A DNA stretch of 64,000 nucleotides from Alphaproteobacteria bacterium. Lineage in GTDB: Bacteria; Pseudomonadota; Alphaproteobacteria; DSM-16000; Inquilinaceae. Below are positions 24,452-53,516 of this stretch, piece by piece. A program made the translations under genes and the position numbers. Where the stretch lies: positions 1 through 64,000 of the forward strand of contig JANQSN010000053.1 in assembly GCA_028284045.1 (NCBI GenBank), given 5' to 3'. The notes beneath the pieces are model-generated. The model saw only the letters and a list, made by a program, of their open reading frames with translations. It had not been told where the DNA came from and did no database searches. Position 1 is the first letter of the stretch; each line of letters begins with the position of its first letter.

Positions 24452-24537
24452 GGAGGGGTGGCCGAGTGGTTAAAGGCAGCAGACTGTAAATCTGCCCGCG
24501 TAAGCGTACGGTGGTTCGAATCCATCCCCCTCCACCA
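24452..24537 (+). tRNA. tRNA-Tyr(GTA), integration site of the mobile element
   Basis: This class II tRNA of 86 nt has acceptor GGAGGGG paired with CCCCTCC, anticodon loop CTGTAAA (anticodon GTA), a long variable arm (CCCGCGTAAGCGTACGG), T-loop TTCGAAT, discriminator A and an encoded CCA (24535-24537). It is intact. The mobile element starts at or just after its 3' end, and the recombinase gene runs into it on the opposite strand. Confidence 0.97.
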
Positions 24538-26062
24538 TTCTGGAATCCGGAGTTCCAAAACCGGCTAACACCTTGAAAGGCAAGGTCAGAATCCCGGTTC
24601 GAAAGCCCTTGTTCCGGCGGTAGGGCAGTCTTCCGCCAAAGACCAGCCTGAGGACCATTCTCTTGTCCTCCAGACGGTCAGAGTTCCAGAGTTGACAAGG
24701 GTTTGCGAGGAACGCGCAGGCGGTTCGAAACGTCTGGTCGAAGGTGCGCAGTGGCCTGCTGCTCGTGCGCACTCGCTCACTGAGCAGAGCCTTCTCTTCC
24801 TCCAGCTTTCTGATCCTGGACTCGTAGGCCGCTATCAGCGTGGGACTGTCCGCTTCCACGATGCGGTCCATCAACTGATCCGTCTGACGCGCGATCTTCG
24901 CGATATCTGCCTTCGCGTTTGCAGCGCGCTCCTGCGCCCTCCCCATACGGTCGTCCCACAGTTCACGGAGCATATCGCAGGCAGCGGCGAACATGTCCGA
25001 CGCCGGCCGCACGCTTTCCAGCAGAGCTTCGAATTCCTCCTCCAGATGTTCCTTGCGGATCGTCTTGCGTCGTTCCGGGCAACCTGGCTGATAGCAATAG
25101 TAGTAGGGGTACTTGGCAGCCCGGCCCTTTGACCAGGCCGCCGTCATCGGTTCGCCGCAGCAGCCACAGGTTACGAAGCCGCGCAGCGGAAAGTCCGCAT
25201 TGATGTCCTTGCGGATGGGGGCCCTGTTGGTGCCCTTTAGGCGGTCCTGAACCTTCTTCCAGGTCTCGAGGCTGATGAGCGGCTCGTGCTTCGCAGGCAG
25301 CAGTCTGATATTCCAGTCGGGAAGGTCGATGTAACCGGCGTAGATGGGCCGCTCCAGCATAAGCCGAACATAGTTGAATACGATCTCGCCTTTGGGGTTG
25401 CGCCTGACGGGTGGGTTTGCTTTGAGGAACCGAAGAATCTCTGTCTGTGTTTCAAATCGGCCCGACGCGAAGCCCTCAAATACCTCGCGCACCAAGGTCG
25501 CATTTGGTTCGTCCGGCACAAGCATGGAACCATGACCGCTGACCTTCTCGTAGCGATAGCCCACGGGCGGTGCGAAGACCCAGTAGCCGTTCGTGACACG
25601 GGCGCGCATGCGGTTGACCACCTGCTCGGCGTTTTTCTGTCGCTGGTGCTGGGAGACGGAGGCCAGCAGGTTTTCGACAAGAATGCTGTCGGAGTCGTCG
25701 CCGAACTCGATGGACGGGGACTCGAGCTTGCCCCCGGCCCCCTGAATGGCGGTGCGAAGCTGGATATGGGCCTCAATGCCCCTCGCAAGGCGGCTGATAT
25801 CGTCGATGATCACGACATGCTGGCGATGCCTGCGATGCTTCCTTAGGAAGGCCAGCATGGCCTGCATACCGGTCCGGTCGATCAGCCCGCCCGAAACACC
25901 TTCGTCGCGGAAGGTGTCCACGACGTCATAGTCCATGCGCGCCGCAAACTCGCGGCAGCGCGTCTCCTGTGAACCGAGTCCGTGGCCTTCCCGGACCTGC
26001 TTGGCGCTGGACACTCGGCAATAGATGACGGCTTGCTGTTTCTTGTTCTCCTTCATGTTCAA
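24470..26062 (-). CDS. Large serine recombinase (integrase) whose 3' end runs into tRNA-Tyr
   Basis: The protein of about 530 residues has a resolvase catalytic domain (about 10-160, nucleophile Ser in YCRVSSAKQ, then DDISRLARG), a recombinase domain (about 170-290, RVTNGYWVFAPPVGYRYEKV), a zinc ribbon (CGCCGEPM ... CYQPGC) and a C-terminal coiled coil. It would integrate and excise the element. The start may be TTG 26062, overlapping the preceding stop (TTGA), or ATG 26056; coupling to the gene before is evident. The last 22 or so codons (VEGDGFEPPYAYAGRF and on) are the antisense strand of tRNA-Tyr and its stop is inside the tRNA. The native C-terminus would therefore change when the element excises. 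Confidence 0.88.
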   Translation of the reverse strand: MNMKENKKQQAVIYCRVSSAKQVREGHGLGSQETRCREFAARMDYDVVDTFRDEGVSGGLIDRTGMQAMLAFLRKHRRHRQHVVIIDDISRLARGIEAHIQLRTAIQGAGGKLESPSIEFGDDSDSILVENLLASVSQHQRQKNAEQVVNRMRARVTNGYWVFAPPVGYRYEKVSGHGSMLVPDEPNATLVREVFEGFASGRFETQTEILRFLKANPPVRRNPKGEIVFNYVRLMLERPIYAGYIDLPDWNIRLLPAKHEPLISLETWKKVQDRLKGTNRAPIRKDINADFPLRGFVTCGCCGEPMTAAWSKGRAAKYPYYYCYQPGCPERRKTIRKEHLEEEFEALLESVRPASDMFAAACDMLRELWDDRMGRAQERAANAKADIAKIARQTDQLMDRIVEADSPTLIAAYESRIRKLEEEKALLSERVRTSSRPLRTFDQTFRTACAFLANPCQLWNSDRLEDKRMVLRLVFGGRLPYRRNKGFRTGILTLPFKVLAGFGTPDSRMVEGDGFEPPYAYAGRFTVCCL

Positions 26063-26502
26063 GTACGCTTTTCCGATGTTCTGGCCTTGTTCTCCTCATA
26101 TTCAGCCACGGCGACGAGCAGGCCTTCGATCAACGAGTTGTCCGGACTTTCGTCCAACTGCAGGGATGGTGACTCCAACTTTCCGCCTGCGCCATCAATC
26201 ATCCGGCGCAGCGTCATGTAGGTCGTCATGCTGCGAGCCAGGCGGCTGACGTCATCGATAAGCACCACCACTTCGTCCGATCGATGTGATCGCAGGAAAG
26301 TCAGCAGAGCCTGTATGCCGGGCCGATCGACCGAATTGCCCGAAGCATGGTCGGAAAAGACCTGGGCCACATCGTAGCCGTTTTGCTGCGCATAGTCCCG
26401 GCAACGCTGTTCCTGGGCGTGGAGCCGCTGATCGCGGCAATCCTCTCCAATGCTCGCGACACGACAATAAATAACGGCATCTTTATTTTCAAATTTACTC
26501 AT
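26059..26502 (-). CDS. Small serine-recombinase paralogue lacking the catalytic serine
   Basis: The 147-residue protein is a stand-alone resolvase catalytic fold without recombinase, zinc-ribbon or coiled-coil parts. It matches the large recombinase closely in places (GAGGKLESPS, IDDVSRLAR, VDRPGIQALL against IDRTGMQAML), so it looks like a truncated duplicate. The nucleophile position reads YCRVAS, with Ala where the large protein has YCRVSS. The codon is GCG, so it is probably inactive in strand cleavage. It may act as a dimer partner, directionality factor or decoy. GGAGGA lies 8 nt before the ATG; it overlaps both neighbours (8 nt and 4 nt). Confidence 0.8.
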   Translation of the reverse strand: MSKFENKDAVIYCRVASIGEDCRDQRLHAQEQRCRDYAQQNGYDVAQVFSDHASGNSVDRPGIQALLTFLRSHRSDEVVVLIDDVSRLARSMTTYMTLRRMIDGAGGKLESPSLQLDESPDNSLIEGLLVAVAEYEENKARTSEKRT

Positions 26503-26776
26503 TATATTTTTCCTCCTTTGGCGTTTCTGGCGCCACAACATCTATGAAGCTTCTGGAAATCGAACGTAGTTTTGATTCTACACCATTCGAATCGCCCGTT
26601 TCACCTATTCGTGCAGCAATCCCCTCAACTTGCTGGGCCGGATGCAGCCCAAAGGCCTGATCGGCAAAGCTCTCCATGATCGTCCAAAGCGTGTGGATAA
26701 GTTCCACCTTCTGCTTCTCGGAGATGTCGAAGTGGTCGACATATTTCCGGTACTTTTCCATATTGGGCGGCATCAC
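26495..26776 (-). CDS. Small hypothetical protein, first gene of the recombinase operon
   Basis: The 93-residue protein is acidic and mostly helical (YRKYVDHFDISEKQKVELIH, TLWTIMESFADQAFGLHPAQ), without membrane segment or DNA-binding motif visible. Its stop overlaps the ATG of the small recombinase by 8 nt, and the three genes end at tRNA-Tyr. Being first behind the SOS-type promoter, it could be a recombination directionality factor, but that is inference from position only. The family is not recognised. Confidence 0.7.
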   Translation of the reverse strand: MMPPNMEKYRKYVDHFDISEKQKVELIHTLWTIMESFADQAFGLHPAQQVEGIAARIGETGDSNGVESKLRSISRSFIDVVAPETPKEEKYNE

Positions 26777-28377: not shown

Positions 28378-28698
28378 TCAGTCCTCGCCTCTTGCGGTCA
28401 GAAGTACGATCACCGGGCAGCTTCCGCCCGCCGGGATCACACGTCGGCTGTGCAGGCCGAGGTAGTCGCAGCGCTGATAGATGCGTGCGGCCGGGTCGTT
28501 CCCGATGGCGGTGTAGCTGTAGCGATAGCGCAGGTGCGGTGTGCCCAACGTCATGGCGGCCAGCACGACCCCGCCGATCACCGGTATCCAGACCAGACTC
28601 CGCACGCGGACGAACCATGGACGCGGGGAAGGCGCACGCTTCTGCTGCCGGCAAGGACGTGGTTCGGCGATCACTTTCGAGCGGATGCGATCCGTCAT
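28378..28698 (-). CDS. Hypothetical membrane protein of the transfer operon
   Basis: The 106-residue protein has a basic N-terminus (RSKVIAEPRPCRQQKRAP), a membrane helix (LVWIPVIGGVVLAAMTLG, about 33-50) and a periplasmic-type tail with YRYSYTAIGNDPAARIYQRC and GGSCPVIVLL; the two cysteines could pair. No family recognised. The ATG at 28698 overlaps the stop of the coupling protein gene by 4 nt. A longer frame to 28791 would lie inside that gene and is rejected. Confidence 0.68.
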   Translation of the reverse strand: MTDRIRSKVIAEPRPCRQQKRAPSPRPWFVRVRSLVWIPVIGGVVLAAMTLGTPHLRYRYSYTAIGNDPAARIYQRCDYLGLHSRRVIPAGGSCPVIVLLTARGED

Positions 28699-30437
28699 CG
28701 CGACGTCCTTTCGGGGTATGTTAGGCGCAGGACAGGATCGCCACGCAGGCGTCCACCTTCGACCGGGTTGTCGCCGACACGGTCCCGCCACGGATCGACC
28801 TGTCCGTGATGCACCATGGTCAGGCGCGTGGGTCGGAGGCCGCGGACGAACAGCCAGGCCTGATCGCGCGGCATGGCCAGGATTTCGTCGGGCGTCATCA
28901 TCCGGCGGCCCAGTTCGCCGCTGGTCACGTTGAGGTCGGTGACCTCGGACTTGTAGGCGTAGTCCTGCTTGCGGATGGTCGCCTCGGACAGCATGTCGGA
29001 GACCCGCTTGGCCTGGTCGAAGGCGTTCAGCCCGGCATAGATTTTGACGTCGGCATAGGCGTCGATCGCCGCAGCGGCCTCACGCCCGTACTTGCGCTGC
29101 AGGCCGGCAAAGGACTGGATGTAGAAGTCCGCGGAGACATGCAGGCCGCGCATCGTCTCCAGATCGGATTCGATGTCGACAAAGCGGTAGTTCAGCATTT
29201 CTTCGCCGACGATGTGCACCGGCCGCCCGGCCGGGTGCTGCTTGCAGGCCGCGAGCAGGTTGTAGTTCAGGATCGAGATGAACGGACCGAAGCCGCGGCT
29301 GTGGCTGAGCGGCGCCATGACGAACAGGATGATCTGGCGGTTGCGCAGATCGGCGATGTTGTGGACCGCCGTTCGGCCGATCCCGGCAAGTCTGCCGCCC
29401 TGGTTGAAGCTGATCAGGCTCTGGGTCGCGCCTTCCAGGAAGGATGCGAAGTTCTCGTCGTTCTTCTTCGACCGGTGCAACAGGTTGGCCGCTTCGCTCT
29501 TCAGAAACGCGACGATCGGATCGGCCGCATGCACCGTTTCCAGGTTCTTGCGGACATAGACGAGCAAGCGCAGGAAGGCCGCCGGATCGTTGAGCACGGC
29601 AAACACATCTGAAGGCGTGCACCGGGCCGGGTCGATCAGGGCAAGCGCCAGAATGGCGGTCGAGATGCAGCGCCGGCTTCCTTGCCGGAAATACAGGTTC
29701 TCCTTCACACCCTCTTCGGGCAGGTGAAGCTGCGCCAGGTCCTGGGAGCGAGTGACCGCGTCTTCCCGCGTCGCGTCCGTCGCGTAGACCGCATCGAGCA
29801 CCGACTGATAGAGGTTGAGCTCGATGTCGCCGCAAGCCTCGAAATGCCGGCGCGTTGGGTTCACGCACCAGACCTCGAACCCGAGGTCCCGAAGCGTCGG
29901 TGCCAACATGGGGCCGAGTTCGAGCTTGGGGTCCGAAACGAATAGCGACTTCCCGAGAAAAGGTTGGTGCAAAACACTGCTGACGACGTAGCAGCTTGTC
30001 TTTCCACCGCCGGGCGCCATCTCGGTCAGCGAGAACGGTGTCTTCGCCGGCATGTAAACCGGCTGTCCGCGTTCATCGAGACCGAGCAGGTTGCCGCTGT
30101 TCGGATCGTCCATGCTGAGCGCAGCCATCTCGTCCGGCGTCGCCTCGCGGGCCGAGCCGTGATGGTTGGTAACGCGCAACGATCTCGCCAGATTGCGGCG
30201 GAGGCGGTAGTCGCGGACCAGCAGGTGCAGACCCTTCACGGCGCCGACGGCCGCCACGGTGCCGGTCATGCCGCAGAGCAGGTATTGCTGCCAGTCACCC
30301 GTCACATCCGGCCAAAGGCCGTAGGTCGCGAACGCGCCGATGGCGCCGACCGTGAAGGCGGTGTTGACGGGACCAGCCGCAGGCGTGACCGCGACGGGTG
30401 CACGGACTCCAATGGCCCGCCTAGGCATGACCATCAT
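28695..30437 (-). CDS. Type IV coupling protein (VirD4/TraG family)
   Basis: The 580-residue ATPase has two N-terminal membrane helices (about 25-41 and 52-74), Walker A APGGGKTS (141-148), the nearby FVSDPKLEL typical of VirD4/TraG, and a C-terminal TraG domain containing HIVGEEMLNYRFV, where a Walker-B-like acidic pair sits, and RKYGREAAAAIDAYADVKIY. It would bring the relaxase-DNA complex to a secretion channel at the inner membrane. It overlaps the upstream gene by 17 nt. The relaxase gene lies 26 kb away at 56961-58256, and no channel genes are seen. Confidence 0.9.
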   Translation of the reverse strand: MMVMPRRAIGVRAPVAVTPAAGPVNTAFTVGAIGAFATYGLWPDVTGDWQQYLLCGMTGTVAAVGAVKGLHLLVRDYRLRRNLARSLRVTNHHGSAREATPDEMAALSMDDPNSGNLLGLDERGQPVYMPAKTPFSLTEMAPGGGKTSCYVVSSVLHQPFLGKSLFVSDPKLELGPMLAPTLRDLGFEVWCVNPTRRHFEACGDIELNLYQSVLDAVYATDATREDAVTRSQDLAQLHLPEEGVKENLYFRQGSRRCISTAILALALIDPARCTPSDVFAVLNDPAAFLRLLVYVRKNLETVHAADPIVAFLKSEAANLLHRSKKNDENFASFLEGATQSLISFNQGGRLAGIGRTAVHNIADLRNRQIILFVMAPLSHSRGFGPFISILNYNLLAACKQHPAGRPVHIVGEEMLNYRFVDIESDLETMRGLHVSADFYIQSFAGLQRKYGREAAAAIDAYADVKIYAGLNAFDQAKRVSDMLSEATIRKQDYAYKSEVTDLNVTSGELGRRMMTPDEILAMPRDQAWLFVRGLRPTRLTMVHHGQVDPWRDRVGDNPVEGGRLRGDPVLRLTYPERTSR

Positions 30438-34555: not shown

Positions 34556-34846
34556 CCTGGCAGTTGCTCATCGGCCGGTTCCTCTCCCCATATTCGCGTC
34601 GATAGTCGACACACCTGTCACCTTGTGGCGCTGCAGCCGTTCCGGGTAACGGTCTTCGCAGTCCGTCTCTCCTTTGGTTGGCTTTTTTCACTTTGCCGGA
34701 GTGTGGCCGGGCGCGCCGCCGCGTCAATGCCCGGCCCGCTCCATTCGGCCGCAAGCGGCCTCCCGTGTTGGGCATGACCCGCCGGCTTGTCCGCCCGGCC
34801 GTGGTTCTCCGCGTTGAAGAAAACCCCTAACCAAAGGAGAACTAAA
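34556..34846. other. Intergenic leader region of parB
   Basis: The 291 bp between the ankyrin gene and parB contain the structured element (34719-34781), a short T-run at about 34683, and the ribosome site ACCAAAGGAGAA, almost the same as the one before the DUF736 gene (ACCAAAGGAGAA at 37283). No gene seen. Confidence 0.55.
34719..34781 (+). ncRNA. Repeated structured leader element, copy 1 (upstream of parB)
   Basis: This 63-nt element differs from copy 2 (37164-37226) at only three positions. The outer stem ATGCCC (34727-34732) pairs with GGGCAT (34770-34775); the inner hairpin is GGCCG-CAAG-CGGCC. In copy 2 the outer stem is ATGGCC/GGCCAT: two of the three differences are the two partners of one base pair (34730 and 34772). 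This supports an RNA structure. It ends about 65 nt before the parB start. It could instead be a DNA site. Confidence 0.5.
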
Positions 34847-36727
34847 ATGACTGACTTGACCACCATACCCTTTAACAAGCTCGTGCCGGCTGACGACAAC
34901 GTCCGCAAGACCGGCAAGGGCGACGGCATCGATGAGCTTGCCGCATCGATCGCCGCACACGGCCTGCTGCAGTCGCTGGTCGTGCGCAAAGCCAAGCGCG
35001 GCAAGTACGCCGTCGTCGCCGGTAACCGGCGCCTGTCGGCCCTGAAGGCGCTCGCCGAGAGCGGCGTGGTCGGGTACGGCTTCGAGGTGCCGTGCCGGTT
35101 GCTGACTGATGAGGACGACGCAACGGAAATCGGCCTTGCCGAGAACGTCGTGCGCATGCCGATGCATCCGGCCGACCAGTTCGAGGCCTTCCGTGATGTG
35201 ATTGACAAGGGCGCATCGGTTGCCGATGTCGCGGCCCGCTTCGGCGTCTCAGATGGCATCGTCGCCAAGCGCCTGCGGCTCGGTCGCCTGAGCCCGGTGA
35301 TCCTCGATGCCTACCGGCAGGGCGCCATCGGGCTCGACGAGGCGCAAGCCTTCGCCATCACCGACGATCAGGACGCACAGGAGCGCGTCTGGTCACAACT
35401 CCCCGACTGGAACCGCAACCCGCGGATAATCCGGCAGGCGCTCACCGAAGACGAGATTCCGGCCAGCGACAAGCGTGTGCGCTTTGCCGGTCTCGATGTC
35501 TACGAGGATCGCGGCGGCGCAGTGCGGCGTGACCTTTTCGACGAGCACGGCGTCTATCTTCTCGACGAGACGTTACTGGACGAACTGGTCCATGCCGGAC
35601 TCGAACGGGAGGCCGAAAGCGTCCGCGAGGAAGGCTGGGCCTGGGTCGAGATCGTGCCCGACCTCGACCGCGAGTCCCTGTCGGAGTTCTCGCGCCGGTA
35701 TCCCGAACAGGCTCCCCTGTCTGACGAGGACGACGCCGAACTGGAGCGTCTTTCCGAAGAGTACGACACTCTCGTCGAGCAGCTCGACGACGATGTCGAA
35801 GACCCCGACCTTGAGGAACGTCTGTCGGCGATCGATGCCCGGATCGACGAGCTCAACGACTCGTCCTACGTCTATCCCGACGAGACCAAGGCGATCGCCG
35901 GAACCGTCCTGACACTGAACTGGCAGGGCGCGGTCGACGTCATCCGCGGTCTTGTCAGGCCGGAGGATGAACCGGCAAAGCCGAAACCCAAATCCGGCAG
36001 CGACCCGGCCGGCGATCCCGCGGTCGTGCTTCCCGCGAACCTCGTCGAAGACCTGACCGGCGAGAAGACCATGGCGCTCCGGGCCGCGGTGGCAGGCAAC
36101 ACGGACGTCGCTCTCGCGGCGCTCGTGCATGCACTGGCATCGCAGGTCTTCTTCCCCGCGACCCACGGCGAGATCTGCCTGCAGATCACGGTGCGTCAGG
36201 AACGGCTTGCGAGACCCGGCACCGACACGGAGCAGAGCCCCGCCCGCGTCGCGCTCGATGCGAAACGGGAGCGCTGGCAATCGGCGTTGCCCGTCAGCCC
36301 GGATGAGCTTTGGTCTTGGTGCCTGGAGCAAAGCCGCGACGTGCTGCTCGACCTCCTGGCGTTCTGCGTTGGGCTCGGCGTTGACGCCGTCCGGCGCAAG
36401 CACGATGCGCAGCACTCGCCACGTCTGCTTCATGCCGACGCGCTGGCGCGGGCCCTGTCGCTCAACATGGCCGACTGGTACATGCCGACTGCCGAGAGCT
36501 TCTTCGCCCGGATCAGCGCCGCGTCCATCCATGCGGCGCTGAGCGAAGCCCGCGGCCAGCCCGGCGCGCCTGCCTGGTCGAAGCTGAAAAAGGCCGAGCT
36601 TGCCGCATTGGCTGAGCGCCTCATTGGCCCGACCGGCTGGCAGCCCGAACCGCTACGGATTGGTGATGGCTCGACCGGCGAGGTCGATGGCACCGACAGC
36701 GGAACGTTCGCCGAAGCGGCAGAATAG
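34847..36727 (+). CDS. ParB/Spo0J-family protein
   Basis: The 626-residue protein starts with a ParB/Srx nuclease-like domain (IPFNKLVPADDNVRKTG, AASIAAHGLLQSLVVRK, GNRRLSALKAL, IGLAENVVRMPMHPADQFEA) and a helix-turn-helix (ASVADVAARFGVSDGIVAKR, about 125-144). A strongly acidic segment (about 295-345) and a long C-terminal domain follow. There is no ParA partner. Such large ParB-like proteins are typical of alphaproteobacterial mobile elements and may stabilise or regulate them. AAAGGAGA is 8 nt before the ATG; the structured element lies upstream and a strong terminator follows. Confidence 0.88.
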   Translation: MTDLTTIPFNKLVPADDNVRKTGKGDGIDELAASIAAHGLLQSLVVRKAKRGKYAVVAGNRRLSALKALAESGVVGYGFEVPCRLLTDEDDATEIGLAENVVRMPMHPADQFEAFRDVIDKGASVADVAARFGVSDGIVAKRLRLGRLSPVILDAYRQGAIGLDEAQAFAITDDQDAQERVWSQLPDWNRNPRIIRQALTEDEIPASDKRVRFAGLDVYEDRGGAVRRDLFDEHGVYLLDETLLDELVHAGLEREAESVREEGWAWVEIVPDLDRESLSEFSRRYPEQAPLSDEDDAELERLSEEYDTLVEQLDDDVEDPDLEERLSAIDARIDELNDSSYVYPDETKAIAGTVLTLNWQGAVDVIRGLVRPEDEPAKPKPKSGSDPAGDPAVVLPANLVEDLTGEKTMALRAAVAGNTDVALAALVHALASQVFFPATHGEICLQITVRQERLARPGTDTEQSPARVALDAKRERWQSALPVSPDELWSWCLEQSRDVLLDLLAFCVGLGVDAVRRKHDAQHSPRLLHADALARALSLNMADWYMPTAESFFARISAASIHAALSEARGQPGAPAWSKLKKAELAALAERLIGPTGWQPEPLRIGDGSTGEVDGTDSGTFAEAAE

Positions 36728-36747
36728 CTCTCTGCGACCGTTCAAGA

Positions 36748-36778
36748 CCGGCCGCGTCCCCACCGGGGGCGCGGCCGG
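36748..36778 (+). terminator. Rho-independent terminator of parB
   Basis: CCGGCCGCG (36748-36756) pairs with CGCGGCCGG (36770-36778); the stem continues inward through TCCCC/GGGGG to a 3-nt loop. TTTACGTCTT follows. It starts 21 bp after the parB stop. Confidence 0.75.
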
Positions 36779-37163
36779 TTTACGTCTTATCTTCTGCGCG
36801 CCTCGACGAAGCTGCCCCTGCCGCGGGGCCTTTCTTCATGCCGGTTCCGGCTGACGGCGAAGGCTGCCGGCTTGTGCCGCAGTGTCCCGCCACGGAACGA
36901 AATGGCCCTGTCCTGAGAGCGGTTCGACGGCGTGGGGTCGGCGGCGTCGCCGCCCGAATACCCTGCAGTCCATGCGGAGCCAACTCCCGGCCGCGGCATC
37001 CAGAGGTGCATCGCATCCGGCCCAGCCGATCGCAGAAAAGCGCTTGCCTGTGGCCCTCGGTATGTCGGCCAGGGTCGCGCGCGATCTCGTCTCCTTCGGC
37101 AGGGCCTGTCCATCCAGCCAGCCTGAATGCACGCGATCAGACCGGCGGGCATGCGCCTGACGG
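36779..37163. other. Non-coding stretch between parB and the second leader element
   Basis: About 385 bp of GC-rich sequence with several overlapping open frames but no convincing ribosome site or protein family. With the element copy at 37164 and two small hairpins at about 37240-37277 (CCGATG/CATCGG and GGCTGGA-TGG-TCCAGCC), the whole 36779-37301 region looks like a long leader of the DUF736 gene. Confidence 0.5.
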
Positions 37164-37226
37164 CCGCGTCAATGGCCGGCCCGCTCCGTTCGGCCGCAAG
37201 CGGCCTCCCGTGTTGGCCATGACCCG
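37164..37226 (+). ncRNA. Repeated structured leader element, copy 2 (upstream of DUF736 gene)
   Basis: Sixty of 63 positions equal copy 1 (34719-34781). The outer stem here is ATGGCC (37172-37177) with GGCCAT (37215-37220), a C-G to G-C swap relative to copy 1. The inner hairpin GGCCG-CAAG-CGGCC is unchanged; the remaining difference (A to G at 37188) is unpaired. It ends 75 nt before the DUF736 start. Confidence 0.5.
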
Positions 37227-37301
37227 TGCCCTGGCCCGGTCCGATGTCTCCCCGTGCATCGGCTGGATGGTCCAGCCCTTACAACCAAAGGAGAAATCAC
37301 T

Positions 37302-37601
37302 ATGAGCACGACACAAACCAACGACAGACCGATGTTCCGCGTCACCTTTTCCCGCATCACCGGCAGGGACGGCCACGGCCGCGACCAGCTGTCCCGACCC
37401 AAGGAGATCGGCGCCGTCTGGGCCCGCAAGGGAGACAAGAAGGGCGGGATCATCGCACTCGACATCATCCCGCTCGAACTGACCCAGCGCCAGGGCGTCA
37501 TCTTTCTGGTGCCGATCGACGACGACGCCAAGACCAAGACGGATTCCGAAGGCGCCCCCGATGCGGAAACCGAAACGGAGGTCGAAGCCGCCGAGCAGTA
37601 G
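37302..37601 (+). CDS. DUF736 domain protein
   Basis: The 99-residue protein has DUF736-like features (FRVTFSRITGRDGHGRDQLS, GAVWARKGDKKGGIIALDII, LTQRQGVIFLVPIDDD). DUF736 proteins are small, found mainly on plasmids and integrative elements of Alphaproteobacteria, often near ParB and transfer genes; the molecular role is not established. The C-terminus is acidic (ETETEVEAAEQ). AAAGGAGA lies 8 nt before the ATG. It is preceded by the structured leader element and followed by a hairpin terminator. Confidence 0.78.
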   Translation: MSTTQTNDRPMFRVTFSRITGRDGHGRDQLSRPKEIGAVWARKGDKKGGIIALDIIPLELTQRQGVIFLVPIDDDAKTKTDSEGAPDAETETEVEAAEQ

Positions 37602-37694: not shown

Positions 37695-37731
37695 AAGCCC
37701 GGATGCGGCGGGATGGACCGCATCCGGGCTT
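37695..37731. terminator. Bidirectional terminator hairpin
   Basis: A 14-bp stem AAGCCCGGATGCGG (37695-37708) / CCGCATCCGGGCTT (37718-37731) with a 9-nt loop. It lies between the DUF736 gene (rightward) and the small-protein operon ending at 37751 (leftward), so it can serve both. Confidence 0.7.
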
Positions 37732-37750
37732 TCAGGGCGTGGGAAAGGGT

Positions 37751-37945
37751 TCAGTGCTTCTTCGAGCGCGGCTGGCCGGTCAGGATAGCTTCCAGCTCAA
37801 TCACGGCTTCCATCTGATGCATTTGCTCGCGCATGACTTCTGACGTCATTAGCATGTTCTTTCGCTGTCGTTCGGTAATCTGATCTATCAAATCTTGAAC
37901 ATCAGAAATGTCGATGGTGACTTTATCAATATCCGGCCCATTCAT
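37751..37945 (-). CDS. Small hypothetical protein, third of a small-protein operon
   Basis: The 64-residue protein is helical with heptad-like spacing (VTIDISDVQDLIDQITERQR then MREQMHQMEAVIELEAILTG), probably a short coiled coil. No family recognised. The ATG overlaps the stop of the preceding gene by 4 nt. A strong hairpin terminator follows 20 bp after its stop. Codon use is more AT-rich at its start than that of the neighbours. Confidence 0.6.
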   Translation of the reverse strand: MNGPDIDKVTIDISDVQDLIDQITERQRKNMLMTSEVMREQMHQMEAVIELEAILTGQPRSKKH

Positions 37946-40981: not shown

Positions 40982-43315
40982 ATGAGAATCGAGCAGATCG
41001 AGCTGGGCAATTTCCGTAAACTGCAAAGCGTCAATATCGGCGTTTCGGAGCAGAAGACCGTTTTCGTCGGGGCAAACAATAGTGGGAAAACTTCCGCGAT
41101 GTTTGCGCTCCGCTACTTTTTACTGGAACGTGAGCGATCAAAGTTCACGTTGAATGATTTCACACTCTCTTACTGGCCCACCATCGAGGAAATGGGCCGC
41201 TCCTGGGAGGACGCAAAGGCAGCCGCGCAGGAGCTCCCTGCTCCGGATTGGGCACCTTTCCTCCCATTCTTGGATGTCTGGCTCGTTGTAGAAAAGAGCG
41301 AGGCACACTTCGTCCAGAAGCTTATCCCCACGCTGGACTGGGATGGAGGACGCCTTGGCGTCAGGTTGAGGCTTGAACCAAGAGACCCTGAACAACTCCA
41401 GAAGGACTTTCTAGCCGCCCGGGAAGAGGCAAAAGCGATAGAAGCTGTTGATGAGCGCGGCGATGGTGGAGGCTCGGGCAAGAGCGGGAGCAGCCCGGTC
41501 ATTTTGTGGCCTAGGAGCCTCACGGAGTATCTGCAGCGACGCTTCAGCAGCCAATTCACCGTCAAAGCCTACATTCTTGACCCAGCGAAGTTGGCTAAAC
41601 CAGAGCACGGGCTTGCCACACCCCAAGCTCTTGACGGTGATGCTACGCCGATTGAGGGGGAGCCATTTAAGGGGCTCATTCGTATTGATGAAATTCCTGC
41701 GCAGCGGGGCTTCGGCCAGCTTGATGGCCCGTCGGATCCAGACGAGGACGGGCCTGCGGTCCGAGCTTCAACCACTCGGAGGCTATCTGAGCAGTTGCGG
41801 AGGTACTGGAATCGGCACCTCGATCCATTTGATAGCCCAGATGCCAAAGATATCGAGGCGCTGCGGGCGATCGAGCACGCGCAGGGGGCTTTTGATGACC
41901 GCCTGCGCGAAGGGTTTGGTGAAGCCCTCAATGAGGTTGAGGGATTGGGCTATCCTGGTGTCACCGACCCTCGCCTGAAGATTGCCACCCGTCTGAAACC
42001 CGTAGACGGATTGAACCACGAAGCGGCTGTTCAATACATGATCCAGGTGCTGGATGGCGAAAGCGCCATCGACCTGTATTTGCCCGAGGACTCGAACGGG
42101 TTAGGCTATCAGAATCTGATATCGATGGTCTTCCGTTTGATGAGCGCACGGGATGCCTGGATGCGTGTCGGAAAAGCAGCGTCGAAGTCCGAAGCGGTGT
42201 CGGACGCCCTCATTCCGCCCCTACATTTGGTATTGATTGAAGAGCCGGAGGCATATCTCCATACACAGGTACAACAGGTCTTCATCCGGCAGGCATACAA
42301 GATTCTCCGTAACCATAAAGAGCTAAAGAAGAAAAAATCTACGCTGACGACGCAGATGATCGTCAGCACCCACTCAAGCCACCTTGCGCACGAATGCGAT
42401 TTCGATTCCCTGAGATATTTCCGACGACTTCCCGCTTCAAGAAAGGGCGTCCCGCTCTCTTCGGTCGTCGACTTGGGTGGTGCCTTCGGCACAGATGTAC
42501 AGACGAAACGCTTTGTAACTCGATATGTGAAGGTCACGCATTGCGACCTGTTTTTCGCGGACGCTGCGGTGCTGGTGGAAGGACCTGCCGAGCGCATTCT
42601 GGTTCCGTTTTTTCTGCGGCACCAATCGGACTTGCAGGATTTACAAGAATGCTACGTGACGTGGCTCGAAATTGGAGGCAGCCACGCACACAGGCTTAGG
42701 AGCCTGATCGAGCAACTCGGGCTCACAACCCTCATCATAACCGATCTGGACGCAACGGACGTTAACAACAAATCCGTCGCGCCGGTGCGTGGCGCAAAAC
42801 AGAGAACCCGCAACACTACCCTCAAGACATGGTGCCCAAAGCAGGATGATCTTGACACTTTGCTCGATCTGAAGCCGGAGAATAAGGTCACAGATTATCC
42901 TGCAAATGGCTTTTCGATCAGGGTTGCCTATCAATGTCCGATCGAGGTTGATTTCAAAGGCGCGAAGGCCGAATTCGTTTCCCACACTCTGGAAGATGCC
43001 CTTGCGGCTCAGAACCTCCATCTCTTTTCATCGGGTGACGGCAAGGGATTGTTCACCAAGTTTAAGGTGGCCATCGACGGTAGCTCAACGATCCCCGAGC
43101 TGCAGGCGAATCTGTTTGATGAGCTGAGAGAGGGAGGCAAGGCGGAATTCGCGCTTGATCTGTTAGAATTGGAGAACCCCGGCACTCTACAGCCACCGCT
43201 GTATATTCGCGAAGGCCTGGTTTGGCTGACCACACAACTTAGGAAGGTTCAGGAGGACCTTGGGGTCCCGTTGCCCGTGCGTGAGGCGCCTGAGAAGTCG
43301 GTGAAGGCATCGTGA
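40982..43315 (+). CDS. OLD-family ATP-dependent endonuclease (class 2 OLD, Gabija GajA-like)
   Basis: The 777-residue protein has an N-terminal ABC-type ATPase with Walker A GANNSGKTS (30-38), signature NGLGYQNLI (372-380), Walker B LVLIEEPEAYLH (417-428) and H-loop VSTHSSHL (461-468). A TOPRIM nuclease domain follows with VLVEGPAERILV (Glu 533) and IITDLDATD (586-593). OLD proteins with an adjacent UvrD-type helicase form class 2, which includes GajA of the Gabija antiphage system. GajA is usually near 580 residues, so this protein is clearly longer, mainly through an insertion in the ATPase lobe (about 130-345). AAGGGG lies 8 nt before the ATG. It overlaps the helicase gene by 4 nt. Confidence 0.88.
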   Translation: MRIEQIELGNFRKLQSVNIGVSEQKTVFVGANNSGKTSAMFALRYFLLERERSKFTLNDFTLSYWPTIEEMGRSWEDAKAAAQELPAPDWAPFLPFLDVWLVVEKSEAHFVQKLIPTLDWDGGRLGVRLRLEPRDPEQLQKDFLAAREEAKAIEAVDERGDGGGSGKSGSSPVILWPRSLTEYLQRRFSSQFTVKAYILDPAKLAKPEHGLATPQALDGDATPIEGEPFKGLIRIDEIPAQRGFGQLDGPSDPDEDGPAVRASTTRRLSEQLRRYWNRHLDPFDSPDAKDIEALRAIEHAQGAFDDRLREGFGEALNEVEGLGYPGVTDPRLKIATRLKPVDGLNHEAAVQYMIQVLDGESAIDLYLPEDSNGLGYQNLISMVFRLMSARDAWMRVGKAASKSEAVSDALIPPLHLVLIEEPEAYLHTQVQQVFIRQAYKILRNHKELKKKKSTLTTQMIVSTHSSHLAHECDFDSLRYFRRLPASRKGVPLSSVVDLGGAFGTDVQTKRFVTRYVKVTHCDLFFADAAVLVEGPAERILVPFFLRHQSDLQDLQECYVTWLEIGGSHAHRLRSLIEQLGLTTLIITDLDATDVNNKSVAPVRGAKQRTRNTTLKTWCPKQDDLDTLLDLKPENKVTDYPANGFSIRVAYQCPIEVDFKGAKAEFVSHTLEDALAAQNLHLFSSGDGKGLFTKFKVAIDGSSTIPELQANLFDELREGGKAEFALDLLELENPGTLQPPLYIREGLVWLTTQLRKVQEDLGVPLPVREAPEKSVKAS

Positions 43316-45219
43316 TGTCCGATGTAGCCACCGAATCGAATGCTAACCTCGATGACCCGGTCGATGACGAGATTGCGGGATTTCTTAATCCTGCCAAGCC
43401 ACAGAGCTTCTTCCTTTATGCCGGTGCGGGTTCGGGTAAGACACGCTCACTAGTAAAGGCGCTCAATGCAATTCGGCGAGCCTATGGTCGTCAGCTAGCT
43501 TATCAAGGTAAACGAGTTGGGGTCATTACCTACACGAATGCCGCATGCGACGAAATTCAAAGTCGTATTGATTTCCACCCACTCTTCTACGTTTCGACGA
43601 TCCACAGCTTTGCCTGGGAGTTAATCAAGGGTTTTAGTGGCGATATTCGAGAATGGCTCAGGACGGACCTACGAGCAGATATTGAAAGACTGACTGCGGA
43701 AGAGGCTAAGGGACGTCCCGGCACAAAAGCATCCATCACCCGTCAAGCGCAGATAGAATCCAAGACAAGGCGTCTTGGTCGCCTCGACACAATACGGAAA
43801 TTCGCATACAGCCCGACTGGTGAGAACCGCGAGCCTAATTCGCTCAATCATTCTGAGGTGATTGCGATCTCTGCCGACTTCATTACTTCTAAGCCGCTAA
43901 TGAAAAGGATTCTGATCGGAAGATTCCCATTTCTGCTTATAGATGAGAGCCAGGATACAAACCGGCGGCTGATGGACGCGTTTCTGGAGACGGCTAAGAA
44001 ACACGATTCAGAGTTCGCACTGGGTTTAATCGGTGATGTTATGCAGCGCATATACGCTGACGGAAAGGAAAGGATCGAGCAAAGTCTTCCAGCATCTTGG
44101 CCTACGCCATCAAAGAAGCTCAATCACCGTTGCCCGAAGCGCCTAGTCACCCTCATCAATAAAATTCGTTCGGATGTGGATACGCATGTGCAGGTTCCGC
44201 GAACGGATGCGATTGAGGGATGTATTCGTCTGTTCATCTGCAGGTCGGATGCGAATGACAGAAGGGCAGTCGAAGACTCCGTTCGGCGACAAATGGCGGA
44301 GAAAACTGGCGACGAGAGCTGGCGTGAGCACGATTCCTGTAAGATTCTTACGCTTGAACATCATATGGCTGCAGTTCGTCTTGGCTTCAGCGGTGTATTT
44401 GATCCACTGTACGGGATAGATGAATGGCGTACCGGCCTGCTGGATGGGAGCTTTCCTCCAACGCGGTTCTTTGCCCAGAATCTGTTGCCGTTGGTGCAGG
44501 CACAACAGAATGGTGACAGATTTGCCGTGGCGAGGATCGTTCGCAGCAATTGTCCATTCCTCTCAGCCCAAGCGCTCAAGGAGGCAGGTGATCCTGGCAA
44601 TCTGCTCCGGTTGGCACAGGCCGGAGTCGATGCGTTGGCGGCTCTCTGGAGAGGGGGTGAGCCGACTTGCGGGCAGGCCTTGAAGAGCGTTGCGGAAAGC
44701 GGGCTCTTCGAGATTCCCGACCGACTATCGCCGGTCCTTAGGGTTCTCCAGAAGGGCGTCTCGGACGGCGCGGAACAGCTCGAACCGGATGACCCGGTTA
44801 CGCCGGAAACTTCAGCTCTTCTTACTTTCCTTGAGGCACCTTTCGGGCAGATTGATCTTTATCAGCAGTATGTGTCGGGCCTCGCTCCCTTCGATACCCA
44901 CCAAGGTGTCAAGGGGCGGGAGTTTGATCGAGTCATGGTGATCATGGACGATGCGCAGGCGCGCGGGTTCATGTTTGGATACGAGAAGTTGCTTGGTGCT
45001 AAGGCCGCGACGCAGAATGAAATGAAGAATGCCGCAGACGGAAGAGAGACGGGTATCGATCGTACACGCCGCCTCCTCTACGTTACCTGCAGCCGTGCGG
45101 AGAGAAGCCTTGCGCTTGTTGCTTATACAGAGAATCCAACGGCAGTTAAGTCACACGTCTTGCATAACGGCTGGTTTACCGAAGAGGAAATTGATGTGGA
45201 GATCGAAGGCGCAAAGTGA
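43312..45219 (+). CDS. UvrD/PcrA-like helicase (GajB-like partner of the OLD nuclease)
   Basis: The 635-residue superfamily 1 helicase has Walker A AGAGSGKT (37-44), motif Ia-like VGVITYTNAACDEI, motif Ic VSTIHSFAWEL, Walker B FLLIDESQDTNR, motif III GLIGDVMQRIY, motif IV-type LNHRCPKRLV and the late motifs VKGREFDRVMVIMD and RLLYVTCSRAERSLALV. ATG overlaps the nuclease stop (ATGA). In Gabija the helicase binds the nuclease complex and produces DNA ends or senses nucleotides; a similar role is likely. GajB is around 490 residues, so this is longer. Lower GC than the neighbouring transfer genes suggests separate acquisition. Confidence 0.88.
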   Translation: MMSDVATESNANLDDPVDDEIAGFLNPAKPQSFFLYAGAGSGKTRSLVKALNAIRRAYGRQLAYQGKRVGVITYTNAACDEIQSRIDFHPLFYVSTIHSFAWELIKGFSGDIREWLRTDLRADIERLTAEEAKGRPGTKASITRQAQIESKTRRLGRLDTIRKFAYSPTGENREPNSLNHSEVIAISADFITSKPLMKRILIGRFPFLLIDESQDTNRRLMDAFLETAKKHDSEFALGLIGDVMQRIYADGKERIEQSLPASWPTPSKKLNHRCPKRLVTLINKIRSDVDTHVQVPRTDAIEGCIRLFICRSDANDRRAVEDSVRRQMAEKTGDESWREHDSCKILTLEHHMAAVRLGFSGVFDPLYGIDEWRTGLLDGSFPPTRFFAQNLLPLVQAQQNGDRFAVARIVRSNCPFLSAQALKEAGDPGNLLRLAQAGVDALAALWRGGEPTCGQALKSVAESGLFEIPDRLSPVLRVLQKGVSDGAEQLEPDDPVTPETSALLTFLEAPFGQIDLYQQYVSGLAPFDTHQGVKGREFDRVMVIMDDAQARGFMFGYEKLLGAKAATQNEMKNAADGRETGIDRTRRLLYVTCSRAERSLALVAYTENPTAVKSHVLHNGWFTEEEIDVEIEGAK

Positions 45220-47362: not shown

Positions 47363-47683
47363 AGTTGCGCGTCCGGCTGGTGCCGGACCGGGCTCTACTC
47401 GCTGCACTCCCGAAGCCCCTTCGGGTCTCCGCCATCCGGTGACGATCCCTCGCGCTTCTGATCGGACAGCCTCCGGCTGACTTCCTTTCTTGTTGGGGGC
47501 CTGCGGCCCCAGGCCCGTCAAGGCCAAGCCCTTCGGGCGAGAACCGGGAGACCGTGGCTCCTCCGCTTGCGCTCCGTGCGCCCGCACCATCCCCCGGTTT
47601 TCGGCCTTGACCGCCGCACCCCCGCTCATTGCCGCGGGGCTAGTCGGTTGCATGCGCAACCCCTAGCTCAAAGGAAAAAGGCA
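47363..47683. other. Divergent region between the HExxH gene and ardC
   Basis: The 321 bp hold several G/C hairpins (for example GAAGCCCCTTCGGGTCTC at 47412, GGGGCCTGCGGCCCC at 47499 and AAGCCCTTCGGGC at 47527) and end with CCCCTAGCTCAAAGGAAA before ardC, which resembles the CCCCTAACCAAAGGAGAA before parB. No gene seen. Confidence 0.5.
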
Positions 47684-48580
47684 ATGAGGACAGATATTTA
47701 TGAGAAGGTCACCACGCAGATTGTGGCTGATTTGGAGAAGGGCGTGCGGCCTTGGCTGAAGCCATGGAGTGCCGAACACACCGCCGGACGGATCACGCGG
47801 CCCCTGCGCCATAACGGGCACCCCTACTCGGGCATCAACGTGCTCATGTTGTGGGGCTCTGCCGTCTCGGCAGGTTTCGCCGCGCCGATCTGGATGACGT
47901 ACCGGCAGGCGGTTGAACTGGGAGCCCACGTCCGCAAGGGCGAGAAGGGCTCGCCGGTCGTTTATGCCAGTTCGATCACGCGCACCGAAGCCGATGAGAA
48001 CGGCGACGAGACCGAGCGGGAAATCCCCTTTATGAAGGGATACACGGTTTTCAATGTCGAGCAGATCGACGGGCTACCCACGCACTATTACGGCAAGCCG
48101 GAGCCGCGCTTTGACGCACCTGCCCGCATCGAACACGCGGAAGGCTTCTTTGCGGCCCTCGGTGCCGAATTCCGCCATGGCGGGGACAAGGCCTACTACG
48201 CGGCGGGCAGCGACCATGTGCAGATGCCGCCCTTCGAGGCGTTCGCCGATGCCGAAAGCTACTACGCGACCTTGGCGCATGAATGCACGCACTGGACCAA
48301 GCACGCGAAGCGGCTGGACCGGGATTTCGGTCGCAAGCGCTGGGGCGATGAAGGATACGCCCGCGAGGAACTGGTCGCCGAGTTGGGCGCGGCCTTCCTG
48401 TGCGCCGACCTCGAATTGACCCCGGAAGTTCGCGAGGACCACAGCGCCTATATCGCCTCGAGGCTGAAGGTGCTGAAGGGCGACAAGCGGGCGATCTTCA
48501 GCGCCGCCGCCCACGCCCAGCGCGCCGCAGATTTCCTACATGGTCTTCAGGCCGCTCAGACCGAGGAACGGGCGGCATGA
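47684..48580 (+). CDS. ardC: ArdC-like antirestriction protein with zinc-protease domain
   Basis: The 298-residue protein has an N-terminal ArdC single-stranded DNA-binding domain (DIYEKVTTQIVADLEKGVRP, then HNGHPYSGINVLMLWGS and YRQAVELGAHVRKGEKGSPV) and a C-terminal zincin with TLAHECTHWTKHAKRL (HExxH, 199-203) and REELVAELGAAFLCADL (third ligand Glu). ArdC proteins protect incoming DNA from host restriction during transfer. ATG 47684 follows AAAGGA. It overlaps the next small gene by 4 nt. Confidence 0.88.
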   Translation: MRTDIYEKVTTQIVADLEKGVRPWLKPWSAEHTAGRITRPLRHNGHPYSGINVLMLWGSAVSAGFAAPIWMTYRQAVELGAHVRKGEKGSPVVYASSITRTEADENGDETEREIPFMKGYTVFNVEQIDGLPTHYYGKPEPRFDAPARIEHAEGFFAALGAEFRHGGDKAYYAAGSDHVQMPPFEAFADAESYYATLAHECTHWTKHAKRLDRDFGRKRWGDEGYAREELVAELGAAFLCADLELTPEVREDHSAYIASRLKVLKGDKRAIFSAAAHAQRAADFLHGLQAAQTEERAA

Positions 48581-51633: not shown

Positions 51634-52163
51634 TCAGAGCCCTTCGTATCACGCAGGTTCAATCGGTATCTACAGTCTGCGATCCTTGGGTTTGAGCCAC
51701 CCACTTCACGCGCCCAGCAGGGTCGCCTATCGGCCCGATGCTGACGAGCCGGCACCCCGCGGCAAGAGGCTACTTGATGAGGCAAAGCGGACGCTTACGA
51801 GCCCTTTGGACTGACTGCCTCGTGCCAGAACCGGTCCTTTGGATAGCGCTAGTATACGGCAGGCTCTGAGATTGCCTCCTCCGCTACCGATCATCGCGAT
51901 CCCGGTGGCGGATTGCCCTCCTCGGCATTCGAACCAACTTTTTGGCGCTACTCCGACCCGATGCGTGCATCTACCCTCAATGATGTGACAAGACGGGGAG
52001 CTCTATGCGACCATGCGGCGTGGGCGCATGGAGGCGAGTTATCCACGGGGCCGTACCGTCGTACAAATGCCCGATACAAGCCCCAGCCCTTCTCCCGAAG
52101 TTGTCTCACGAAGCGCGGAGGCGGGATTTCAGAGCTGTCCGCGGGTCAGAGGCGGAAGAAGCC
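51634..52163. other. Gene-free region upstream of the STAND pair
   Basis: The 530 bp carry no convincing gene. A frame overlapping the coiled-coil gene ends at 51814 and one at 51913-52167 lacks a ribosome site and conserved pattern. A single DnaA-box-like TTATCCACG lies at about 52039. The promoter of the ATPase/STAND operon must be in the last part; no strong boxes are visible. Confidence 0.5.
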
Positions 52164-53516
52164 ATGAGCATATCATCTGCAGCCTACAACGCATTCAACG
52201 CCGATGAACCTCTCCCGGGCGACGACGAGGCTCGCTATGTGGATCTCTCCTCTGTGCGAGGGGACACGAAGATCGCCCAAAGGCTGGTTCAGCGGATCAA
52301 GAATTCCGAGAACAATGCCTCGTGCCATCTTCTAATGGGTCACACCAAATGCGGTAAGACCACCGAGTTGAACCGTGCCGCCTTCATGCTGGAAAGGGAA
52401 GGGTACGCGTCGGTCTTTTTTGATGTCGCCGAAGAGGCAACCCGACAGTTCGAATACACCACGGTTCTGTTGCTCACCGCGGCGCATGTGGTCGACCAAT
52501 TGTCCACACGAAAGGACAAGGCCATTCGTGTGCGCGGGAGCAGTGCGAAGAAGCTGGCCGAGTTTTTGGTCGAAAAGCAGATTACGACCACGGGTCAACT
52601 CTCGGCTGACGCCGGTGCCAAGGTGGAGGCCAAGGCCGCTCCAGGATTGCTCACGCGGCTCTTGGGGGAGTTCGGCATCGCTGCGCAAATGAGAGGCGGG
52701 TTCCAGAAATCGAGAGCCATTACGGTCAAGATCGAAGCCGACACGAGGAGCTTCATCGAAGCCGTACAGGAGCTGATGACCGAAGCAACCAGTAAGGTGC
52801 TGAGAGCCGGACTGAAAGGGCTCGTTGTCATTTGCGATGGATGCGACAAGCTCGATCTTCACGCAACCGACGAAAAGGGTGCTTCACAGGATCTGCAGTT
52901 CAACATGTTCGTTGGCCATTCAGCCGATCTGCAATCTCTTCCCTGCCACATCATTTACACGGTGCCGATATCCATTCAGGTGCCTCTTGGAGATATCTGG
53001 GAACAGACGCCCGAATTTGTCCCCGCGGTGCCCGTGAACAGTTCATCACGTGTGCTGGAACAGGTCGCCGCCGACGGACGCGCCAAGTTGAAGGAAGTTG
53101 TACTGCGCCGTCTAGCCGTTCTCAATCAGACATTCGAGGACATCTTTTCCGACGAGAAGCAGCTTGAACGGCTCATCGATGCATCGGGAGGCCATATCAG
53201 CGACCTTCTGCTCCTGGTTCGGGAGGCGATCCTCGAAGCACAGACCGACAGCGCTGATCGCATTTCTGAGAATCATGTCCAGCGATCTATCCGAAACCGA
53301 GCTCGCGAATACCGAGCCTTGATCGAAGGCGAGTATCTGGAAACGCTTGTCCGTATTGATGAGTACAAGACGACAGTGAATAGCGACACTTATCGTGAGT
53401 TGATCTTCAAGAAGCTTGTTCTTGAATACATTTGCGGCATGGAGGCCACAATAGATCTGCATCCGTTGGTCGCTGCCTCGGACGCCTACATGAGCTATAG
53501 TAGGCAGTACCGGTGA
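52164..53516 (+). CDS. P-loop ATPase paired with a STAND/TPR protein
   Basis: The 450-residue protein begins SSAAYNAFNADEPLPGDDEA, then RYVDLSSVRGDTKIAQRLVQ. Walker A is GHTKCGKT (59-66), Walker B LVVICDGCDKLD (220-231), and a sensor-like segment CHIIYTVPISIQVPLG (261-276) follows. The remainder is helical. This layout is recalled from ATPases that stand next to NB-ARC/TPR proteins in other bacteria, with no firm function. It has no membrane segment. It is 38 bp upstream of the STAND gene on the same strand, so the two form an operon. The start at ATG 52164 is chosen as it follows GGCGGAAG; a longer frame to 52005 is not conserved-looking. Confidence 0.8.
   Translation: MSISSAAYNAFNADEPLPGDDEARYVDLSSVRGDTKIAQRLVQRIKNSENNASCHLLMGHTKCGKTTELNRAAFMLEREGYASVFFDVAEEATRQFEYTTVLLLTAAHVVDQLSTRKDKAIRVRGSSAKKLAEFLVEKQITTTGQLSADAGAKVEAKAAPGLLTRLLGEFGIAAQMRGGFQKSRAITVKIEADTRSFIEAVQELMTEATSKVLRAGLKGLVVICDGCDKLDLHATDEKGASQDLQFNMFVGHSADLQSLPCHIIYTVPISIQVPLGDIWEQTPEFVPAVPVNSSSRVLEQVAADGRAKLKEVVLRRLAVLNQTFEDIFSDEKQLERLIDASGGHISDLLLLVREAILEAQTDSADRISENHVQRSIRNRAREYRALIEGEYLETLVRIDEYKTTVNSDTYRELIFKKLVLEYICGMEATIDLHPLVAASDAYMSYSRQYR

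Follow-up and report, generated by a model that had tools for sequence, protein, structure and literature searches.

The closest described systems to the element reported here are the Frpo/ssi single-stranded DNA (ssDNA) promoters of F, ColIb-P9 and other enterobacterial plasmids. These are long imperfect hairpins directly upstream of leading-region genes, occurring in several copies per plasmid with the genes that they serve (ssb, ParB, psiB and anti-restriction genes) all pointing to oriT, and carrying -35 and -10 boxes that are reconstituted in the hairpin. The ssb-ParB-psiB operon is reported to be Frpo2-dependent (PMC9849209), orientation toward oriT is expected of leading-region genes (PMC11541004), and the published survey relied on similarity to five known Frpo/ssi sequences together with -35/-10 boxes (PMC11541004). 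Repeated regulatory sequences before conjugative-plasmid establishment genes are also described for the pLS20 family (EGeRS1 and EGeRS2), where EGeRS1 was argued not to be an ssDNA promoter on the ground that it is the non-template strand that is transferred (PMC8708921). Two kinds of RNA invite comparison as well: the cis-regulatory families of Rfam 15, which are covarying stem-loops upstream of genes, and the put RNA antiterminators of phage HK022, which are structured, head the early operons of incoming DNA and act as RNA.

The two repeats studied here, from an alphaproteobacterial window of 64,000 nucleotides (the whole stretch of DNA that was analysed), belong to a widespread family whose members are long imperfect hairpins with stems P0, P1 and P2 and a variable P3. 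As with Frpo/ssi, these hairpins stand directly upstream of leading-region genes, in several copies per element pointing to oriT (by relaxase proxy), serve ParB, ArdA and methylase genes and exhibit an excess of A.C mismatches on the gene strand. They differ from Frpo in their length (~95-110 nt against a palindrome of ~320 nt), in their bacterial class, in being very G+C rich without canonical -10/-35, in being found also in phages and in having a function that is predicted. No sequence similarity to Frpo/ssi was found, the comparison being of two leaders by blastn against plasmids (few or no records, none enterobacterial). The published survey would miss such a family, since it is without -35/-10 boxes. 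The EGeRS sequences share the repeated position before establishment genes, whereas no covarying hairpin of such type is described for them in PMC8708921. In a comparison by description only, put is set apart by the mismatch pattern of the element, which argues against sense RNA, and no family of Rfam 15 matched plausibly at gathering or permissive thresholds (E up to 10), in agreement with the preliminary description, which could assign the element to no described family.

The two copies in the window

Two near-identical leader copies had been noticed in this DNA, and both are present with a unit of 64 nt (34718-34781 and 37163-37226, 61/64 identical), the longest direct repeat within 30-42 kb. 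A 41-nt core pattern with ≤3 mismatches matches these two copies alone in the window (0 expected), and elsewhere in the genome no site of comparable score was found. The copies differ at the three positions described (34730/37175, C/G; 34772/37217, G/C; and the unpaired 34743/37188, A/G), and the first two constitute a genuine compensatory change, C34730-G34772 against G37175-C37217, that converts the stem TGCCC/GGGCA to TGGCC/GGCCA. This stem had been termed outer; it is indeed paired, but is not the outermost, as each copy possesses a further flanking stem that differs between the two (34705-34713 with 34792-34800 in copy 1, 37147-37153 with 37225-37231 in copy 2). RNA folding energies of the single copies are unremarkable (z -1.15 and -0.44), so that two copies alone would not prove structure, and the claim was tested on relatives.

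Copy 1, upstream of parB, spans 34705-34800 (+) when the whole hairpin including the outer stem is delimited from the repeat and a symmetric stem search. It opens with the P0 5′ arm GGCCGGGCG (type A, 34705-34713), followed by the P1/P2 5′ arm GTCA-A-TGCCC with A34727 bulged (34723-34732), a conserved block GGCCCGCTCC (34733-34742), the P3 terminal hairpin CGGCCGCAAGCGGCC (34746-34760) and a second conserved block CCGTGTT (34763-34769). The P2/P1 3′ arm GGGCA-TGAC (34770-34778), placed by alignment and covariation, and the P0 3′ arm CGCCCGGCC (34792-34800) complete the hairpin. In a 22-sequence alignment GCCC and CC of the first block and CCGTGT of the second are invariant. Copy 2, upstream of the DUF736-like gene, spans 37147-37231 (+) with an outer stem of type B, and its P1/P2 arms are GTCA-A-TGGCC (37168-37177, with the compensated G37175) and GGCCA-TGAC (37215-37223, with the compensated C37217). 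Its GGGCATG/CGTGCCC stem is common to L014, and a similar arrangement is seen in L017, L025 and L028.

Both genes carry the same Shine-Dalgarno region (near-identical sites had been pointed out), with ACCAAAGGAGAA at 34830-34841 (+) before parB and at 37284-37295 (+) before the DUF736-like gene. The former encodes a ParB-like protein of 626 aa (34847-36727, +; Pfam ParB_N/HTH_ParB) that is a full-length homologue (30% over 610 aa, E 1e-57) of the F-type leading-region ParB (L145:17967-19931), a type encoded in the ssb-ParB-psiB operon of F-type plasmids. The latter encodes a small protein of 99 aa (37302-37601, +) that had been named DUF736; it has no Pfam/NCBIfam match, while its homologue L004 reaches Pfam DUF736 at E 0.089, and 'DUF736-like' is the safer label.

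A family of covarying hairpins before establishment genes

A covariance-model search, as the preliminary description had proposed, yielded ~100 relatives across Alphaproteobacteria in which compensatory changes are abundant. The first model (R1) had matches in 13/385 genomes of the class and, in two large orders, in 23/391 and 28/397 genomes, and the improved model (R2) in 21/103 genomes of one family; all of these numbers are minima, the initial screening step scoring few candidates where genomes are rich in G+C. An exact-pattern control gave 13 matches against 0 for the reversed pattern, and weak model matches that are likely chance (L158, L159, L162, L164, L171, L139 and L045) were excluded from the final counts. 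By blastn, leaders were located before ArdC on pSymB of S. meliloti, before DUF3768 on p17 of Sediminicoccus (NZ_CP137853) and on an Acuticoccus plasmid, and a protein search added one leader before a DUF736-like gene of Oricola; searches of plasmids with copy 2 (blastn) and with the DUF736-like protein returned no match. Separately, a Sphingobium plasmid (L068; 3350, 5929 and 8819) and an Agrobacterium plasmid (L064; 17221 and 19723) carry G+C-rich leaders of their own that are repeated and near-identical and precede ParB, ArdC, DUF3768 and DUF736 genes, and these are unrelated or only distantly related to the family.

In 82 members the P1/P2 helix consists of 93% standard pairs, with seven of its nine pairs changed on both sides; compensated cells number 95, as compared with 17.8 +/- 3.3 in shuffles, and pairing collapses when the register is slid. 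Covariation was observed again in 31 later-found members (51 against 13.4 +/- 2.7 in shuffles), which comprise R2 matches from two families of one order and the weak L139 in the contig of the window itself and are not fully independent, as R2 was trained on the same order and 7/31 rows are weak and were later left out. The outer stem P0 adopts two geometries in the symmetric stem search, type A (copy 1) with internal loops of ~9 and 13 nt and type B (copy 2) with a 5′ bulge CGCCTGACG and no 3′ gap, and native flank pairs outscore swapped pairs in 5000/5000 permutations (p < 1/5000). The terminal hairpin P3 varies in sequence and in length, from absent to >30 nt, and the conserved blocks of the family read GCCCGCnCC and CCGTGTTG. 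L076, L100 and L120 carry an additional hairpin that separates P2 from P1 on the 3′ side and moves the TGAC partner to its far side, a strong sign that pairing rather than sequence is conserved. The earlier proposal of a structured RNA is thereby borne out as far as a conserved base-paired cis element is concerned; that it acts as RNA is doubtful, as A.C exceeds G.U (see below). Covarying secondary structure, as required of a cis-regulatory RNA, does not in itself separate RNA from ssDNA.

A Shine-Dalgarno sequence and an ORF follow 89 of the 100 distinct elements at 61-84 nt (5-95%; median 69), whereas this applies to 15% of random positions. The genes behind these 89 elements include those for small DUF736-like proteins (47, one cluster), ArdC (11), the MGLDMYAY family (9), ParB (5), DUF2958 (4), N6/N4 DNA methylases (4), DUF3768 (2) and ArdA (2); the MGLDMYAY family apart, these are by their predicted products typical plasmid leading-region (establishment/anti-restriction) genes. 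The view that the element co-regulates two maintenance genes holds insofar as the two are likely expressed together, but is too narrow, as many establishment/anti-restriction genes are involved. The 121-aa MGLDMYAY family (L017:2227-2592 and relatives) has no Pfam or NCBIfam match.

In 39 larger regions the copies of multi-copy loci lie on one strand in 13/13 cases, and the elements are oriented to the nearest relaxase, taken as a proxy for oriT, in 29/33 cases (p 1e-5 per element; 22/25 loci), with the relaxase gene on the strand opposite to the element in 13/33. No terminase/portal gene of the tested phage type was matched in these regions. The leading-region arrangement of Frpo/ssi, namely establishment/anti-defence genes downstream and orientation to oriT by the relaxase proxy, is hence present here. 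That the element is real and structured and serves as a marker of establishment genes is near certain.

Tailed phages (podophages) of IMG/VR carry the element as well, before the first early gene (L177, L223, L188, L194, L209, L211 and L250). Genes for terminase large subunit, head-tail adaptor and major head protein are present on contigs with a confident element match (L209, L211 and L188), and an ArdC gene lies near the element in L209, L250, L194 and L037 of the phage set. In some phage copies a TATA-like box immediately precedes the element (TTATAT in L177 and L223).

The folding strand and the mode of action

Mismatches in the conserved helix bear on which strand folds, as A.C on the gene strand equals G.T on the complementary strand. 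Raw P1/P2 mismatches on the gene strand of 82 members amount to 29 A.C and 4 G.T. Counted as events per cluster in the enlarged set, the A.C:G.T ratio is 26:11 at fine and 19:11 and 13:10 at coarser clustering, an excess against 1:1 with p 0.02 at fine clustering and 0.2 to 0.7 at coarser; single-linkage clustering, which lumps nearly all members together, gives 8:4 and loses significance, and the later-found set alone gives 6:4. The TPP riboswitch of the same bacterial class, our RNA control, gives A.C:G.U of 0:11, whereas Frpo copies (related, not independent) give A.C:G.T of 66:26. At each clustering level the counts of the element depart from those of TPP (Fisher p 3e-5 to 0.004) and at none from those of Frpo, so that the tolerance of G.U over A.C on the sense strand that characterizes a cis-regulatory RNA is absent. 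A count over the whole hairpin palindrome, invariant block included, exhibits no asymmetry (94:113) because conserved GG/TT positions add G.T, and the 3′ hairpin near the Shine-Dalgarno, used as an internal RNA control, is not decisive (11:8 to 24:24).

Folding with DNA parameters favours the minus (template) strand in 51/55 representatives, although shuffles give about half of the difference, which is in part due to base composition. The conserved pairs are likelier on the minus strand as DNA (48 vs 18, p 4e-4) with TPP reversed, while under RNA parameters both strands form them equally well. As DNA, the minus strand of copy 1 folds into exactly P0-P1-P2 (-36.4 kcal/mol, z -2.63) and its plus strand folds otherwise; for copy 2, z is not significant for either strand. 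Against a conventional sense-strand RNA helix these trends provide good evidence, and for folding of the template strand moderate evidence.

With respect to promoter signals, inspection of the folded hairpin revealed no convincing -35/-10 pair and, as the only recurrent feature, a TTGAC-like step where P1 is bulged; neither an A+T-rich -10-like stretch near plasmid copies nor an A+T peak of the promoter kind ahead of the elements was seen. As the reconstituted boxes of Frpo/ssi are lacking, the element is not a member of that family by this measure; it may nevertheless work like one.

The best single mechanism, to which we assign a probability of roughly 0.45, is a hairpin promoter of the Frpo kind carried by the entering strand. 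The hairpin would act on the DNA strand that serves as gene template, in leading regions the first strand into the recipient, and this strand, folded as ssDNA, would recruit RNA polymerase or a recruiting factor. ParB, ArdC, ArdA, methylases and the like would be switched on before second-strand synthesis, several copies per element would turn on several genes at once, and the promoter would be silent once the DNA is double-stranded. Frpo acts in this way on F plasmids. Such a mechanism is favoured by covariation, P0, position, gene types, strand orientation, multiple copies, the mismatch signature and DNA folding. It is weakened by the absence of -35/-10, the weak A.C excess at coarse clustering, the composition effect, the relaxase strand and the dsDNA phages; as phage DNA enters double-stranded, the element must have another mode of action in phages unless the ssDNA view is mistaken. 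Only slightly less probable is the wider proposition of a second, independently evolved class of ssDNA promoters, widespread in Alphaproteobacteria and with G+C-rich hairpins, with a recognition code other than -35/-10 and borrowed by phages.

Ranked second, and rather unlikely on present evidence, is the cis-acting RNA leader in the 5′ UTR that the preliminary description had favoured, which might be a put-like antiterminator, a 5′-end stabiliser or a riboregulator with a host factor binding GCCCGC/CGTGTT. Such a leader would account for the almost constant spacing from the start codon and for the equal conserved pairing of both strands under RNA energy parameters, it would work in dsDNA phages, and the TATA-like boxes of L177 and L223 would start a transcript at the hairpin; the scarcity of G.U and frequency of A.C in the conserved helix, opposite to TPP of the same class, the missing A+T peak and the missing Rfam match all speak against it. 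Third, and improbable, is a dsDNA element extruded as a cruciform or hairpin on both strands and serving, like the hairpin promoters of phage N4, as promoter or protein site. Equal A.C and G.T would then be expected, with which the 13:10 of coarse clustering is compatible, and plasmids and phages would be served alike; the strand differences in folding and pairing, however, point to one strand, and very G+C-rich stems extrude poorly. There is little likelihood that the hairpin is an ssDNA initiation site for complementary-strand synthesis or an attC-kind ssDNA recombination site. A minus-strand hairpin with variable terminal loop would suit either, and Frpo also primes DNA synthesis (Masai and Arai 1997, as listed in PMC11541004), but one copy per gene at a fixed start-codon distance indicates gene expression, and inspection of the hairpin base revealed no conserved core of the attC type. 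Least likely, and already disfavoured, is a plain repressor- or activator-binding palindrome common to the two genes, for which an inverted repeat upstream of co-regulated genes would be typical, as the stem sequences vary freely with pairing kept and a variable hairpin separates the two conserved blocks, in both respects the opposite of what a dsDNA-binding protein would need.

Three further candidates were rejected. An antisense small RNA from the minus strand lacks a terminator-like T run after the hairpin (members read by eye), the loop as anti-Shine-Dalgarno has a varying base (GCTCC/GCACC/GCGCC) and no SD match, and the upstream TCTCCTTT, considered as an anti-SD arm, reads at several loci as the SD of a divergent gene.

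Irrespective of its mode of action, the covariance model leads to a direct candidate list of establishment/anti-defence genes in rhizobial, marine and other alphaproteobacterial elements, with the MGLDMYAY family and the small DUF736-like proteins among those so marked, and supplies a testable cis element. Should the element prove to be RNA, the dsDNA phage copies would make it a common early-gene leader of invading DNA.

Other genes of the mobile element

Both copies point toward a MobA/VirD2-like relaxase (56961-58256, -; Pfam PF03432, E 2.2e-13), and a TraG/VirD4-like T4SS coupling protein is encoded at 28695-30437 (-; Pfam PF02534 and PF12696). An ArdC anti-restriction gene is found at 47684-48580 (+; Pfam ArdcN and MPTase-PolyVal), its likely start at 47684 being taken from the SD AAAGGAAAAA. 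Its leader (47510-47614, +) forms a different hairpin with a perfect GTCAAGGCC/GGCCTTGAC stem and a GCCCGCACCA motif on the other arm; it is unmatched by the covariance models and may be a third copy that has diverged. ARAGORN calls a tRNA-SeC (37699-37781, +) immediately downstream of the DUF736-like gene; this is without Rfam support and probably a false call. Serine recombinases adjoin a tRNA-Tyr gene at 24452-26541. An NB-ARC/TPR STAND NTPase (53555-56641, +) and its AAA-like neighbour (52005-53516) lie beside the relaxase and are a possible defence gene pair, and a complete Gabija system (40982-45219, +; GajA E 1.8e-276, GajB 1.1e-246, PADLOC) is located within the mobile element.
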